From positions 1 through 41,443 of the IMG/VR virus record IMGVR_UViG_3300049912_000004: a stretch of DNA of 41,443 nucleotides; one strand, 5' to 3'. This DNA comes from a virus. Each line of letters begins with the position of its first letter. Positions within the stretch are counted from its first letter, which is position 1. Under the pieces are notes generated by a model. It saw only the letters and a list, made by a program, of their open reading frames with translations, made no database searches and was not told where the DNA came from. This document shows, piece after piece, positions 31,124 through 38,901 of this stretch. The position numbers and the translations under genes are program-made.

Positions 31124-31611
31124 GGTTTCAGCCCCTTGATGTAATCGTCCAACTCAGCCACGGCGATGCGCTCGACCACGTTGCGGCTCTTCAGGTCATC
31201 TACCACGTCGGCTTCTGTGGTCCACCCCGTGGCCTTGTGCTGTGGCTGCTGATTGTCTTTACTCATCACATAGGGTGCATAAGGCACTTTTGTCCCAACG
31301 ATGGCACCGCTATCGCCCCACGGTACAGCTACCCAAGACTGCTCTAGTTTCTCGCTCCACGGATCACTGATGCGTGCGTACTTCGGATCAAGATGTTTCT
31401 CGCCACGCTTGGCAAAGTAAGCTCTGCGTTGTGCGTCCGATGCCCAGATGACGGGCGAGTTGGATGGCCCCGGAGGCGTAGTCAGTTTCACCTTGGCTTC
31501 CCTGGCAATGCCCAGCGCCGCTTTCTGCAACGTCCTATCCAGCCCTGGGCCACTCAGTCCAGCCAAGAGCCTCTGCACTGCATCCAATCCCTCAATCGTT
31601 AGCTCTGCCAT
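31120..31611 (-). CDS. HK97 gp10-like head-tail protein
   Basis: 163 aa. The start (LTIEGLDAVQRLLAGLSG...LQKAALGIAREAKVKLTTPP) and VGTKVPYAPYVM in the second half are the family's pattern; members act in head-tail joining or tail completion. Here it lies between portal-MuF and the capsid gene rather than after the capsid, so it may be a minor head protein. TGATG overlap with the portal gene. Confidence 0.75.
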   Translation of the reverse strand: MAELTIEGLDAVQRLLAGLSGPGLDRTLQKAALGIAREAKVKLTTPPGPSNSPVIWASDAQRRAYFAKRGEKHLDPKYARISDPWSEKLEQSWVAVPWGDSGAIVGTKVPYAPYVMSKDNQQPQHKATGWTTEADVVDDLKSRNVVERIAVAELDDYIKGLKP

Positions 31612-33734
31612 CAGTCAATCGTCAATTCTGTATGGCACCGGCAGTTCACATGCCCCGGTGGTCCATCTGGAAAGCGATTCGCCCATTCGTCTTCCGTCTT
31701 CAGATGTAGCGGCCCGCAGATATCGCATACCAGCTCATCAGCTTCCGTGATCCATATCCGGTGCATCGGCAGGCCACTCTCATTGACCAGTTTCTGCGTC
31801 TCATTCGTCGCCGCCGAGTATGCCCGTGTCGTCTCCGTCGTGGCGATCATCTCGGCGCGCACCGCCCCGAATGCTGGCTCCAGTAGCAACTCCATGTCAC
31901 CCTGCGTCATGCCCGGCGTCTCGATGAACGTGGCGATCACCTCACTCACCAAACTGCGTGTCGTCTCCACAATGCCCTTGACCAACTCGTAGGTGTAGGC
32001 ACGCGCCCATCTGGCCACGTCCAGGTTGATGATCGCTGGGTCAAACCCGACGCCGATCCCCCCACTCGTGCGCAGCGCCTGCTGTGTCATGAGCGCCGTC
32101 AACTCTGGCTGGATTGCCTTGCGCAACTCTGCCATGAACGCGCCCCAGTCGATGGTCTCCCCACGCATGATGGCCTGCTGCACCTTCTTGCGGTAGGCGG
32201 CCAACGCAGCAGCTACCTTGGCTTTCAGCGCCCGCTCTGCTGCAAGTCGCGCCGCCGGGATGGCCTTCAGGAAATCGAAGGCGCGTTCCACCCCCACCTC
32301 AACCATCGCAGCCTTGACCGTCACAGTCAGCCAGTCAGGAATACTCGAATTGTTAAAGTCACAGGACCGCCCCCGCTTCTGTGCTTTGGCTTTCCAGCGG
32401 GCGAGGTCGGACCACAACTCCGAAGTGGCCCCACTGGGGGCCAACGCTTTTGGGATCGTCTCCTCAGTCGGCGGCGTCTCACCTGTCGGCTCCTCTGCTA
32501 CAGGTACTTCCTCTGGCGCAGGCGGGGGCACGTTGACAATGACCGGTGCCGGTTCTGGCTCAGGCTCCCACTCGTCATCCAACTTCGGCAGACTCATCCA
32601 CTCCAGGATCGTGCTGATCGTGCGCCGCGTCTCGTCCAAGTTAACCACCTTCGCCTGGTATGACGCTACCATCTCTTGCATCACGGGCACGGTGGACAGC
32701 GCCTTGTCGATCTCGACGCGCTGTATCGCCTCGATCACGTTGAACCGGAAGCCAATCCTCAGCCCCAGCGGATTCAGCAATTGCTTGTCCAGTATCGGGA
32801 TGATGTGGACGCGCATCTCGGGTAACACGCACTGCGTCCAAAACTCGAATTGCAACCACTCCTGTGTCGCCCGGTTGCTACTCGGTTCGCCCATGCCCTG
32901 TGGGATCTTGTGCGCCACGAGGATCTGCTGCCGCTTGGTCGTCTCTAGTTCCGGCATGGTCATGTCTTTGAGTGGCGGCGAAATGACCGTCGGCGTTAGC
33001 CCGTGCTCAAGGACCACAGTGGAGAATGCTTTCTTGACGCCCTGCACCAGTTTTGTCCAGGTGTTTCGGATCTCCGCCTTGGTGTTCTCTGGTACCGCGC
33101 CCTCTGTCGTCAGCAGAACGAGCGGGACCGCTCCGTTGGCAAAGAACGATGACGCATACTGATTGGCATTGCGAATCAGCCCGGCAGGTTCGGCGCTCAC
33201 GTTGCCCGATGCAGTACCCGGCCCCAGGTCGCGCGTTGGGCTGAACGTGTGAAAGTAGACCACATCCTCTGCGGGGTAGTCCTGCGTCTTGCCACCTACA
33301 GTCTGACGGAACGTGACCGGCCCCTCCGCGTCATAGGTCAGGATCTTCATGGTCGTCGCGTTGAGCACTTGCAAGTCCTTGATGACCACGCGGTTGCGGC
33401 GCTTGAGCCAATACGCCGCGCCCTCGAGCTGCAGCCACGCTTCAGTCAGCCACAGCAGCGGCGAAAGCTCGATGGGCCACTTCACCTCGTTCTCTTCGGT
33501 GTCCTCGTCGCTGTCCATCGTGTAGATGCTGTAGGGAATGGCCGCTGCGCTGTCGCACCTCAGGTTGATCGCCCAGAACGTCCAGGCCACGGCTGCGTAC
33601 AGCTCGCGTGGGTTCTCGATGCGCTCCTGCTGGCCCATCTGCCAGTCCATAAAGTTGTCGATGTCCAGCATGGACACAGACTTCATGCCCAGAGGACCGC
33701 CCATCAGCCGAGGTGTCTGTTGTCGTCGTGTCAT
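31611..33734 (-). CDS. Portal protein fused to Mu gpF-like head morphogenesis domain
   Basis: 707 aa. Residues ~1-390 are an HK97-type portal (AAVAWTFWAINLRCDSAAAIPYSIY, WLQLEGAAYWLKRR, VVYFHTFSP, QILVAHKIPQGMGEPS). A Pro/Glu-rich linker (~395-440) leads to a helical region and a MuF domain with IATTETTRAYSAATNE and the closing WITEADELVCDICGP...GPPGHVNCRC, whose Cys/His cluster may bind zinc. The portal forms the DNA entry ring; MuF proteins are minor head proteins that may be injected. ATG at 33734 overlaps the terminase stop (ATGA); a TTG five codons upstream is less likely. Confidence 0.9.
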   Translation of the reverse strand: MTRRQQTPRLMGGPLGMKSVSMLDIDNFMDWQMGQQERIENPRELYAAVAWTFWAINLRCDSAAAIPYSIYTMDSDEDTEENEVKWPIELSPLLWLTEAWLQLEGAAYWLKRRNRVVIKDLQVLNATTMKILTYDAEGPVTFRQTVGGKTQDYPAEDVVYFHTFSPTRDLGPGTASGNVSAEPAGLIRNANQYASSFFANGAVPLVLLTTEGAVPENTKAEIRNTWTKLVQGVKKAFSTVVLEHGLTPTVISPPLKDMTMPELETTKRQQILVAHKIPQGMGEPSSNRATQEWLQFEFWTQCVLPEMRVHIIPILDKQLLNPLGLRIGFRFNVIEAIQRVEIDKALSTVPVMQEMVASYQAKVVNLDETRRTISTILEWMSLPKLDDEWEPEPEPAPVIVNVPPPAPEEVPVAEEPTGETPPTEETIPKALAPSGATSELWSDLARWKAKAQKRGRSCDFNNSSIPDWLTVTVKAAMVEVGVERAFDFLKAIPAARLAAERALKAKVAAALAAYRKKVQQAIMRGETIDWGAFMAELRKAIQPELTALMTQQALRTSGGIGVGFDPAIINLDVARWARAYTYELVKGIVETTRSLVSEVIATFIETPGMTQGDMELLLEPAFGAVRAEMIATTETTRAYSAATNETQKLVNESGLPMHRIWITEADELVCDICGPLHLKTEDEWANRFPDGPPGHVNCRCHTELTID

Positions 33735-34843
33735 ATCAGTGTGATCCAAGAGCCACTATAGCCAAGGCCCTGATACGCCAGGGCGAGACTCATCACCGTG
33801 TCGTCGTGCATCCCCTCGGGTGCGTTGTAGCGCATCAGCCCAGAGGGAAGCCGCTCCATCTCATAGGCTTGCAGTTCGCCGATCAGGATCGGGTCATTCA
33901 GTATCTTGATGTCGCCCTGCTCGAAGGCCAGGGCCAGGGCGTCAATGGCTGCCGTCTTGGTTGCGTTCGTCGTCACGAATGGTTGCACGGGCAGGCCCAT
34001 CCGCGTGCATTGCTCGATCAACGGCTCCCCCATGCTGTTGGCCTCTGCGATGATGGTGCCTGGACAGTATCGCTCATATAGTGCCTTGAGTCGCCCAAGT
34101 TGCACCTGGTAGTCAATCTGCGCGAACCGGTCCATGTAGACCATGGCGTGTGTACCAGTATCCAGAACTGCCAGCACCGTGAAATCATCATGCTTTCCCC
34201 AGTCCACGCCCATCACGTACTCATGCCCAGGCTGCATCCCGATCTCTGTCGCCGTCGCCGCTTCGGTCACTCGGCGGAACAAGGCCCCGCTGTCTTCCAG
34301 GAACTGAGCCATAAACTCCTGTTGAAAGATCCGCTCTGGCAGCAACTTGCGCGCCGCCTCAATCTCGGTCGGTACGATGTATGGGTTGTCAGATGTAGGC
34401 AGTTGCCACGCTGCCCAGCCTGGTTCTCCACCAATGGCCGCTTGGTACATTCGCCAGAACCAGTTACGGCCAAGAGGTGTGCTGATGAATACTGCCGAGC
34501 CCTGCCGGTCAGCCAATGCTGGCCTGAGTGATGCAGTCCAGGCCTCTTCTCTTGTAAAGGCGCACTCATCCATTGCCACAAAGTCAAGACCCTCACCGCG
34601 TAAACTGTCCGGGTTGTCAGCAGACCGTACACCGATGGTCCCCTTGCCCGGTAGCGTGATCGTGCGCTCGCTCTCGCGCACCTGGGCACCTGGTATCTGT
34701 CGCGCCAACTCTTTGAGTAGTCGCCAACCCACGTTGCTCATGGGGTAGGTCGGCGCTACCCACCAGGCCCGGCCACCGAGAACGGCAGAGCGCAAAGTCA
34801 GCAGGGTTGCAAGGCGCGTCTTGCCCCACCTACCGGCGACCAC
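33731..34843 (-). CDS. Terminase large subunit, main reading frame
   Basis: 370 aa. Walker A GRWGKT at the very start, WWVAPTYPMSNV, Walker B LDFVAMDECA, STPLG coupling motif, then the RNaseH-like nuclease with GVDWGKHDDF, IIAEANSMG and GMHDDTVM. This motor packages DNA through the portal. The frame begins without the N-terminal ~35 residues expected before Walker A; these are in another frame at 34830-34931, so the gene needs a +1 shift (or correction of an insertion) to give a full enzyme. The GTG at 34843 has no ribosome site. Confidence 0.85.
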   Translation of the reverse strand: MVAGRWGKTRLATLLTLRSAVLGGRAWWVAPTYPMSNVGWRLLKELARQIPGAQVRESERTITLPGKGTIGVRSADNPDSLRGEGLDFVAMDECAFTREEAWTASLRPALADRQGSAVFISTPLGRNWFWRMYQAAIGGEPGWAAWQLPTSDNPYIVPTEIEAARKLLPERIFQQEFMAQFLEDSGALFRRVTEAATATEIGMQPGHEYVMGVDWGKHDDFTVLAVLDTGTHAMVYMDRFAQIDYQVQLGRLKALYERYCPGTIIAEANSMGEPLIEQCTRMGLPVQPFVTTNATKTAAIDALALAFEQGDIKILNDPILIGELQAYEMERLPSGLMRYNAPEGMHDDTVMSLALAYQGLGYSGSWITLI

Positions 34844-34931
34844 ACGCTAGGACTTTGAACCTAGCGGGGTCGCCTGCTATCTCCTTCTGCCTAGCGTGTA
34901 GGCTTGGCATGTTCAGGGTTATACTTGGCAT
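34830..34931 (-). CDS. N-terminal piece of terminase large subunit, out of frame
   Basis: 33 codons from the ATG at 34931 (three bases after the TerS stop) reading MPSITLNMPSLHARQKEIAG, then DPARFKVLACGRR and a TAG. This is exactly a TerL N-terminus up to the middle of Walker A (expected GRRWGKT). The next bases in the +1 frame continue WGKT. Relative to an intact gene there is one extra base giving GRRR-WGKT, or four extra bases giving GRRWGKT. Real mutation, programmed +1 shift at CGG-UAG, or an assembly error are all possible. Confidence 0.65.
   Translation of the reverse strand: MPSITLNMPSLHARQKEIAGDPARFKVLACGRR
34842..34899 (-). repeat. Competing inverted repeats at the terminase 5' end
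   Basis: ACACGCTAGG (34842-34851) is perfectly complementary to CCTAGCGTGT (34890-34899). It can instead pair by seven bases with 34860-34866 around an 8-base loop. On the transcript the shared arm ends nine bases before the UAG that breaks the terminase frame. Either stem would sit at the rear or entry of a ribosome on that codon. Confidence 0.6.
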
Positions 34932-34934
34932 ATT

Positions 34935-35258
34935 TCACTTTGGTTCCGGCGAGTAGCCATCATCCTGTCCATCCGCCCACTTGAGCGAGATGGTCAAGTC
35001 GCCGCCCTCCGCACCGGTGATCTCCTGGCGCTGCACGGGTGGTCCAATGAGATAATCGGACAGCCACTTACGGGCGACAGAATCGCCGCGCTTGGCTTGC
35101 TCCTTGGCCTTGCCGACAATCTGCGCCCAATCCTCAAACGTGACAGTTTGCAGGGTGATCTCAAGAAACCGCGCCTCCCTGGTTTTGGAAGGTCGACCTT
35201 TTGGGTTTCCGCTCTCGCCGCCCTTGACAAACCGTCCGTTTGCATCTCTGTCAGTCAC
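34935..35258 (-). CDS. Terminase small subunit-like protein
   Basis: 107 aa. The opening NGRFVKGGESGNPKGRPSKTRE is the basic segment of DUF5681-like proteins that commonly precede TerL and act as small terminase or DNA-recognition subunits; helices follow (FEDWAQIVGKAKEQAKRGDSVARKWLSDYL). Start is the GTG at 35258 with AGGA four bases upstream. Position immediately before TerL supports the call. Confidence 0.75.
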   Translation of the reverse strand: MTDRDANGRFVKGGESGNPKGRPSKTREARFLEITLQTVTFEDWAQIVGKAKEQAKRGDSVARKWLSDYLIGPPVQRQEITGAEGGDLTISLKWADGQDDGYSPEPK

Positions 35259-38403: not shown

Positions 38404-38901
38404 CTAGACTTCATTCAATCTGGCAAACTCGCCGAACAACTCGACCGCCTTGGCATTGTATGCACGCGCCGCATCTTGTTCGCTCTCGAAGCTCCCAATA
38501 TGGTATGACCGTTGACGATACTTTATTCTGGCATACCAACAATCTCTATCCTTCCGAAAGTGGACACCCTTGTAATGTGAAGTAGTGCCCAGTCGTTTTC
38601 GACTGTTCCATTGATTCTGGCCATTCGTAGCCAGTCTAATGTTGACCCGACGATTATCAAGGCCGTCCCCGTTGATATGATCGACATATCTATCTTCAGG
38701 CGCATCAAGGAGCAATCGATGCAGGTACAGTGTCGGATGTGCATGTGAGGCAACGGACCAATAAGCCCCGTCAAAGTGAGCATGCCATCGGCGGGTAATC
38801 ACTGCCGCCAAATCGGCCTTGTCAATCAGGGCAACCTTTCCGCGTGTAAGAGTCATTTCGATTACTTCGTCTTCCCTCAGTTTCCATTCGTTCACTTTCA
38901 C
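38404..38901 (-). CDS. HNH homing endonuclease with AP2 DNA-binding domain
   Basis: 165 aa. The N-half includes LTRGKVALIDKADLAAVITRRW and then LHRLLLDAPEDRYVDHINGDGLDNRRVNIRLATNGQNQWNSRK, the HNH catalytic site (DHINGDGLDN...N) with its upstream LHR. The last ~50 residues (YKGVHFRKDRDCWYARI, YHIGSFESEQDAARAYNAKAVELFGEFARLN) form an AP2 domain. Free-standing mobile endonuclease. GTG at 38901 lies six bases after AGGAGG. No intron or intein beside it was recognised. Confidence 0.85.
   Translation of the reverse strand: MKVNEWKLREDEVIEMTLTRGKVALIDKADLAAVITRRWHAHFDGAYWSVASHAHPTLYLHRLLLDAPEDRYVDHINGDGLDNRRVNIRLATNGQNQWNSRKRLGTTSHYKGVHFRKDRDCWYARIKYRQRSYHIGSFESEQDAARAYNAKAVELFGEFARLNEV

Follow-up and report, generated by a model that had tools for sequence, protein, structure and literature searches.

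Recurrent short inserts at one site in the Walker A motif of phage terminase genes and their possible bypass by the ribosome

How could a phage make the large subunit of its terminase from a gene (terL) that is broken inside its own Walker A motif? The question is raised by a 41,443-base virus record, the whole of which we call the window, with the genes for the portal and the major head protein on its minus strand. On the same strand, terL starts with an ATG at 34931-34929 and is translated for 33 codons (34833..34931; MPSITLNMPSLHARQKEIAGDPARFKVLACGRR, where gap-free homologues read ARFKVLACGRRWGKT) that end in ..ACGRR. The last of these codons, CGG (34833..34835), encodes the second Arg of GRR and, by comparison of the 17 lineages described below, is the putative take-off codon. 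It is followed by TAG at 34832-34830 and a single G at 34829, and then, in the +1 frame, by TGG GGC AAG ACG (W G K T) from 34828. From this Trp the remainder of the gene (WGKTRLATLL..., 33731..34828, 365 codons) is open to a stop at 33731. In profile searches this long part matched Pfam Terminase_6N and 6C above the cut-off as well as PHROG 2, which identifies it as a TerL with the ATPase and RNase-H-like nuclease domains of a Terminase_6-type large subunit; it was the sole TerL match, and no second TerL was found in the whole record. The break that the initial annotation had placed inside Walker A is real. A DUF5681 gene (34935..35258, minus strand; Pfam E 1.2e-8) adjoins terL in the small-terminase position, from which such a function may be presumed, and a portal protein gene with a head-morphogenesis-like end (31611..33749, minus strand; PHROG 2662, E 2.5e-49) lies directly downstream.

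Homologues join the residues that flank the break as ACGRRWGKT with no gap, and therefore the extra stretch in the window is 4 nt (TAGG, 34829..34832, minus strand). Intact homologues are without these bases, which open with an in-frame stop codon and change the frame by +1. At 4 nt in the window (1-11 nt among all carriers, as we call genes with an insert here), the insert is too short to be an intein or a self-splicing intron. Two homologue searches yielded 160 loci, 144 of which passed a motif test with an ungapped GRR[WF]GK[TS] or near variant. Two outside these passes (L063 and L078, CARRWGK[ST]) are intact too, six have a terL that starts downstream of the P-loop, and eight (L004, L066, L326, L327, L336, L340, L342 and L343) bear an insert at the GRR^W boundary. 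In L004, six extra bases with two stops stand precisely at the boundary used in the window. The homologue sample chosen without the insert pattern held 2 inserts among 76 P-loop loci (80 loci in total), both at the GRR^W boundary, and the search queried with a carrier held 6 among 78. A break elsewhere in terL was seen in none of 154 complete C-terminal parts among the relatives. Separately, the P-loop of two loci (L021 at ~1642 and L052 at ~1516) reads GRRWRKT, with Arg replacing the Gly before Lys; these motifs are possibly inactive or a sequencing error.

The break is not peculiar to the window. Five pattern scans of IMG/VR returned 48, 30, 56, 27 and 41 stretches, and all 202 were read codon by codon. 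In 30 of them, a short insert separates the second Arg codon of GRR^WGKT from the Trp codon in a terL whose two flanks are intact. With the window this makes 31 records and 15 insert sequences, grouped as 17 lineages, a number that is an upper estimate of independence because the two lineages with a single extra G could share an ancestor, and likewise the two with AAACGC. The inserts are 1, 4, 5, 6, 8 or 11 nt long, always at the same boundary, and their length modulo 3 is 1 in five lineages, 2 in six and 0 in six. Besides TAGG they read G (L101/L102 and L131), TAGC (L107), AGGT (L125), ATAGC (L111), TAGGT (L141/142/144/157), TGAGC (L223/L235), ATATGA (L133/138/148/152), TGATGA (L140/L153), AAACGC (L143 and L150), TAACGA (L166/182/202/209/225/234), TGACGA (L180), AGACAGGC (L089), TGACTGGC (L112) and CAATCCGCCGC (L104). 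The scan patterns admitted up to 31 nt for AGRR types and up to 16 nt for CGRR types, and within these bounds no insert in terL exceeded 11 nt. One scan for inserts before Phe (GRR^FGKT) gave no genuine case among 41 stretches, and one scan of cellular genome contigs gave no terL carrier among the 80 loci listed (L243-L322) of 83 stretches. As far as open-access literature searches show, this recurrent class of tiny terL inserts is new.

Pattern scans also return false carriers. Intact VVAGRR genes appear as such because TGTGGTCGCCGG can be read both as CGRR and as VVAG, and eight candidates (L103, L137, L095, L418, L423, L427, and L441 with its twin L447) were rejected because their Walker A motif is intact in the other frame. 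The same double reading exists in the window at 34843-34827 (minus strand), as CGRR or, one frame further, as VVAG; the chance reading VVAGRWGKT is present there too, but it is open for six codons only.

The initial annotation had also considered that the consensus contains an erroneous insertion. The window is one record without reads, which leaves room for an assembly or sequencing artefact. We nevertheless find this explanation scarcely credible, because 15 different inserts occupy one codon boundary, the relatives' genes are unbroken elsewhere, and the same insert recurs in separate assemblies that differ by synonymous changes.

Such differences reveal purifying selection on the rest of terL in several lineages. 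Over 402 codons, the six pairs formed by four assemblies with the TAGGT insert (L141/142/144/157) show 2-11 synonymous changes each and 0-1 that are non-synonymous. Among carriers of TAACGA, dN/dS is 0.06 for L225/L234 (dS 0.25), 0.03 for L182/L209 (dS 0.10) and 0.055 for L166/L225 (dS 1.5), and across all informative pairs of diverged records that share an insert it ranges from 0 to 0.06. The pairs L223/L235 and L101/L102 are identical over the part compared, as is the L133 group. One pair, L140/L153 (81.5% identity; dN/dS 0.40), was dropped as evidence of a conserved insert: the two genes are identical for ~400 nt after the insert and then diverge, a mosaic joint inside terL that makes the pair uninformative on selection.

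For the TAACGA clade the argument is weaker. Among L166, L182 and L225, a stretch of ~65 bp that ends with the insert is near-identical (93-100% over the last 45 bp), but the flanks drop to about 25-60% identity in two diverged pairs. This near-identical block amid diverged flanks weakens the selection argument for this clade and not for the TAGGT group; the clade may have acquired its inserts recently, in which case part of the selection signal would predate them. The shared block (about -65 to +12 relative to the insert) looks like a copy passed among phages; it has either moved in this way or is conserved at the nucleotide level.

Could the inserts be scars left where a nuclease (a homing endonuclease, CRISPR or another defence) cut Walker A, in carriers that are defective or live on a helper TerL? 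The fixed position, the near-duplication of GN(T) beside the insert, the random length modulo 3 and the HNH genes described below all suit such scars. We consider this unlikely, since an insert is kept unchanged across several assemblies whose differences are almost all synonymous, the C-terminal parts of the carriers are open across 364-403 codons (complete contigs), and none of the 154 complete C-terminal parts among relatives is broken elsewhere. The defective genomes proposed in the initial annotation are accordingly improbable for lineages with several diverged members, but may account for the window, a single record. No relative shares its TAGG insert, and we therefore argue the function of this insert by analogy with the other carriers. 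At least in some carriers, terL looks functional from its pattern of substitution. That a broken gene should still look functional suggests that the ribosome jumps over the insert; that the C-terminal part is under selection in genes which carry an insert would indirectly support the making of one protein from the two disjoined frames.

A common reading rule is consistent with such a jump. In all 17 lineages, TGG is directly preceded by an NGN triplet that the tRNA-Arg of the preceding CGN codon could read at positions 2 and 3; the take-off codon of L104 was taken as the first Arg (CGA), a choice made after viewing the sequence. The middle G is present in all 15 lineages with inserts of at least 4 nt (0.3^15 = 1e-8) and is trivial in the two +G lineages. 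In the window the predicted landing triplet is AGG (34829..34831, minus strand). By hand count, take-off codon and landing triplet end in the same base in 10 lineages, and in the remaining 7 the changes all stay within U, C and A and never cross to G. The bacterial tRNA-Arg(ICG) reads U, C and A as third bases. One Arg tRNA fits both triplets at all three positions in 5 of the 17 lineages; in the other 12, the window included, pairing is confined to positions 2 and 3, a point against the hop. In bypassing, the A site after take-off is expected to hold a stop or a slow codon, and such codons are present. A stop stands straight after CGN in 8 of the 17 lineages (P 4e-7 against random codons), TAG in the window; the others have AGA, AGG or AUA (five), AAA (two) or GUG (two), of which AGA, AGG and AUA are slow or rare by the standard of E. 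coli and may not be so in the carriers' hosts. A hop from CGN to NGN would give GRRWGKT in every lineage.

The alternatives that act in translation explain fewer of the carriers. Since inserts fall into all three length classes modulo 3, no single frameshift can repair them all. A simple +1 shift at CGG-UAG, as the initial annotation had suggested, would turn the window's CGG-U and following AGG into GRRRWGKT with one extra Arg, but it is of no use to carriers with 5, 6, 8 or 11 nt, re-pairing from CGG to GGU is poor, and the extra residue alters Walker A. We regard it as very improbable: of that earlier claim, recoding stands as the best reading, whereas the specific shift at CGG-UAG does not, given inserts of 1-11 nt elsewhere. 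It could also be supposed that the 6-nt carriers gain two residues by stop read-through or by plain translation and that re-initiation downstream serves the others. In six of the 17 lineages the frame is kept, and the two with AAACGC lack a stop; in the window, a GTG stands five codons ahead of TGG in the C-terminal frame. Yet 11 of the 17 are out of frame and a start codon shortly upstream in the C-terminal frame is missing from several carriers, which makes this proposal extremely improbable. The two AAACGC genes (L143 and L150), which stay in frame, may simply carry two extra residues.

A GN repeat before TGG is also expected from a filled-in break with a short duplication, and both may be true, with duplication at a repaired DNA break and hopping as the filter. 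Scar and hop would then be one history, in which breaks at Walker A give scars of many kinds, those with NGN before TGG alone survive through hopping, and a benefit against the nuclease is unneeded. Such a history accounts for inserts of mixed length that obey the landing rule and lack a conserved stimulator. On its own it leaves unexplained the enrichment of HNH genes and the block shared between diverged terL genes, and we hold it to be rather improbable.

HNH genes are found close to many carriers. Of the 15 lineages that could be tested, 8 have a gene with an HNH or HNH_3 domain no more than about 1 kb upstream, whereas none of 27 intact controls does (P 5.5e-5), with lineages counted as independent and gene positions matched to locus ranges by hand; the controls were dereplicated (28 before) and searched with both Pfam models, and L107 and L089 were left out of the count because they have less than 700 bp of upstream sequence. 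For HNH_3 alone the figures are 7 of 15 against 0 of 67 (105 before dereplication; P 1.7e-6), and with terL restricted to the window type they are 3 of 9 as opposed to 0 of 51 (P 0.0025). The HNH gene is directly or a few genes upstream in L153, L111, L133, L102, L131 and the L142 group, where it ends ~700 bp and has its HNH domain ~0.9-1.0 kb upstream. In L150 and L223 it lies on the opposite strand between a DUF5681-like gene and terL. These last two genes, at about -725 to -20 from the insert, are related, and that of L111 is similar by eye. No nearby HNH gene was found in 7 of the 15 testable lineages, the window among these. Its HNH gene (38404..38901, minus strand, 165 aa; Pfam HNH_3; PHROG 99 HNH endonuclease, E 7.9e-37) is of the free-standing homing type and lies ~3.6 kb upstream of terL; its C-terminal part is AP2-like by eye. 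GIY-YIG nucleases were found in none of 27 carrier records. One of the intact records, L075, contains an HNH_3 gene that follows terL closely on the downstream side. Among cultured relatives of the L133/L141 type, a small-terminase or unnamed gene adjoins terL, and none of the four viewed with upstream sequence has an annotated HNH gene between terL and its neighbour; the P-loop of H61 is intact. Since HNH genes beside terL can also function in packaging, as one report indicates (PMC12724721), the HNH neighbourhood alone is no proof of homing.

Overall, we consider it reasonably probable that the recurrent 1-11 nt inserts in terL are passed by short translational bypassing and have spread by destroying the sites of HNH homing endonucleases. 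The ribosome would translate to CGN, where the next codon is a stop or else, as in several lineages, one that E. coli reads slowly. The peptidyl-tRNA-Arg would then release, slide 1-11 nt and re-pair through positions 2 and 3 with the NGN before TGG, so that TerL would be full-length and its Walker A motif normal. Free-standing HNH homing endonucleases would attack the conserved Walker A DNA, and the inserts probably arose and spread by destroying their recognition site, so that phages with an insert may escape cutting by a selfish enzyme. That the ribosome hops, how efficiently it does so, which DNA the nuclease targets and in what order the events took place are inferred from the sequences. 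The arrangement would be like that of T4 MobA and the bypass of gene 60, a system on which Bonocora and others reportedly published and for which loss of the homing-endonuclease site through the insert has likewise been proposed. More tentatively, such inserts may be widespread homing-linked micro-bypass elements that protect against HNH enzymes, rely on two-of-three re-pairing of tRNA-Arg and dispense with stem-loops, with the conserved nascent chain ..ARFKVLACGRR perhaps enabling the hop.

If this is true, 17 lineages with differing gaps at one site, together with intact controls, would allow direct tests of how ribosomes take off and land, and would show a phage excluding a selfish nuclease from a motif that is unchangeable at the protein level. 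For annotators, such terL genes are not to be discarded as broken.

How does this class compare with known systems? Very few examples of natural bypassing are known in bacteria and phages. Short-distance counterparts of gene 60 are described in a review as long presumed (PMC5009743). In T4 gene 60 the ribosome hops an insert near the gene of the HNH homing endonuclease MobA (PMC5009743, PMC3014915, PMC2988022). Shared with the terL inserts are a non-coding insert, an essential ATPase-subunit gene, a stop following the take-off codon (in 8 of the 17 terL lineages), a nearby HNH gene in those 8 of the 15 testable terL lineages that have one, and a full-length protein by hopping, which in terL is conjectural. 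Gene 60 has a 50-nt gap, matched GGA codons, stem-loops and a nascent-peptide signal. The terL inserts, in contrast, are 1-11 nt long, pair mostly at two of three positions, and occur in another gene and in many lineages; no conserved RNA fold was found at the insert site (21 sequences against shuffles, z -1.2 to 1.2), and the window's element is therefore not classed as gene 60 type.

Phage phiHau3 (JX182369), on which Smith and others are said to have written a paper, has a terL broken inside its own Walker A: KGWG, then TTA, then YSGKD in the +1 frame. It is unlike the window's class in having one extra base, UUA at the A site, another terL family and another point within Walker A. An apparent second frame change was also noticed ~100-120 codons past the KGWG break (L413, 2329-3995). 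Terminase bypass has been suggested for this Streptomyces phage and for prophage StrepC.1, and in the review it is tied to UUA decoding, not to an insert (PMC5009743). The phiHau3 case nonetheless counts in favour of a hop in the window's class.

The byp elements of the yeast Magnusiomyces capitatus, as outlined in the same review (PMC5009743), are mitochondrial, lie in 12/15 genes and go with relaxed decoding, whereas the inserts described here occupy one fixed site in one phage gene. The synthetic 'stop-hops' of E. coli, with matched codons flanking a stop and a short gap, are resembled by the TAACGA carriers (CGA UAA CGA); they are laboratory constructs, however, and the review treats natural in-frame stop hopping as not known (PMC5009743). 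Inteins in the Walker A motif of mycobacteriophage terL, for example between Lys and Thr, are mobile elements aimed at the same active-site DNA, but they are whole protein-splicing elements (PMC5050341), whereas the inserts in terL here are a few bases without an intein. The class of terL inserts differs from the known bypasses in its site, its gap length, its number of lineages and its link to HNH genes.
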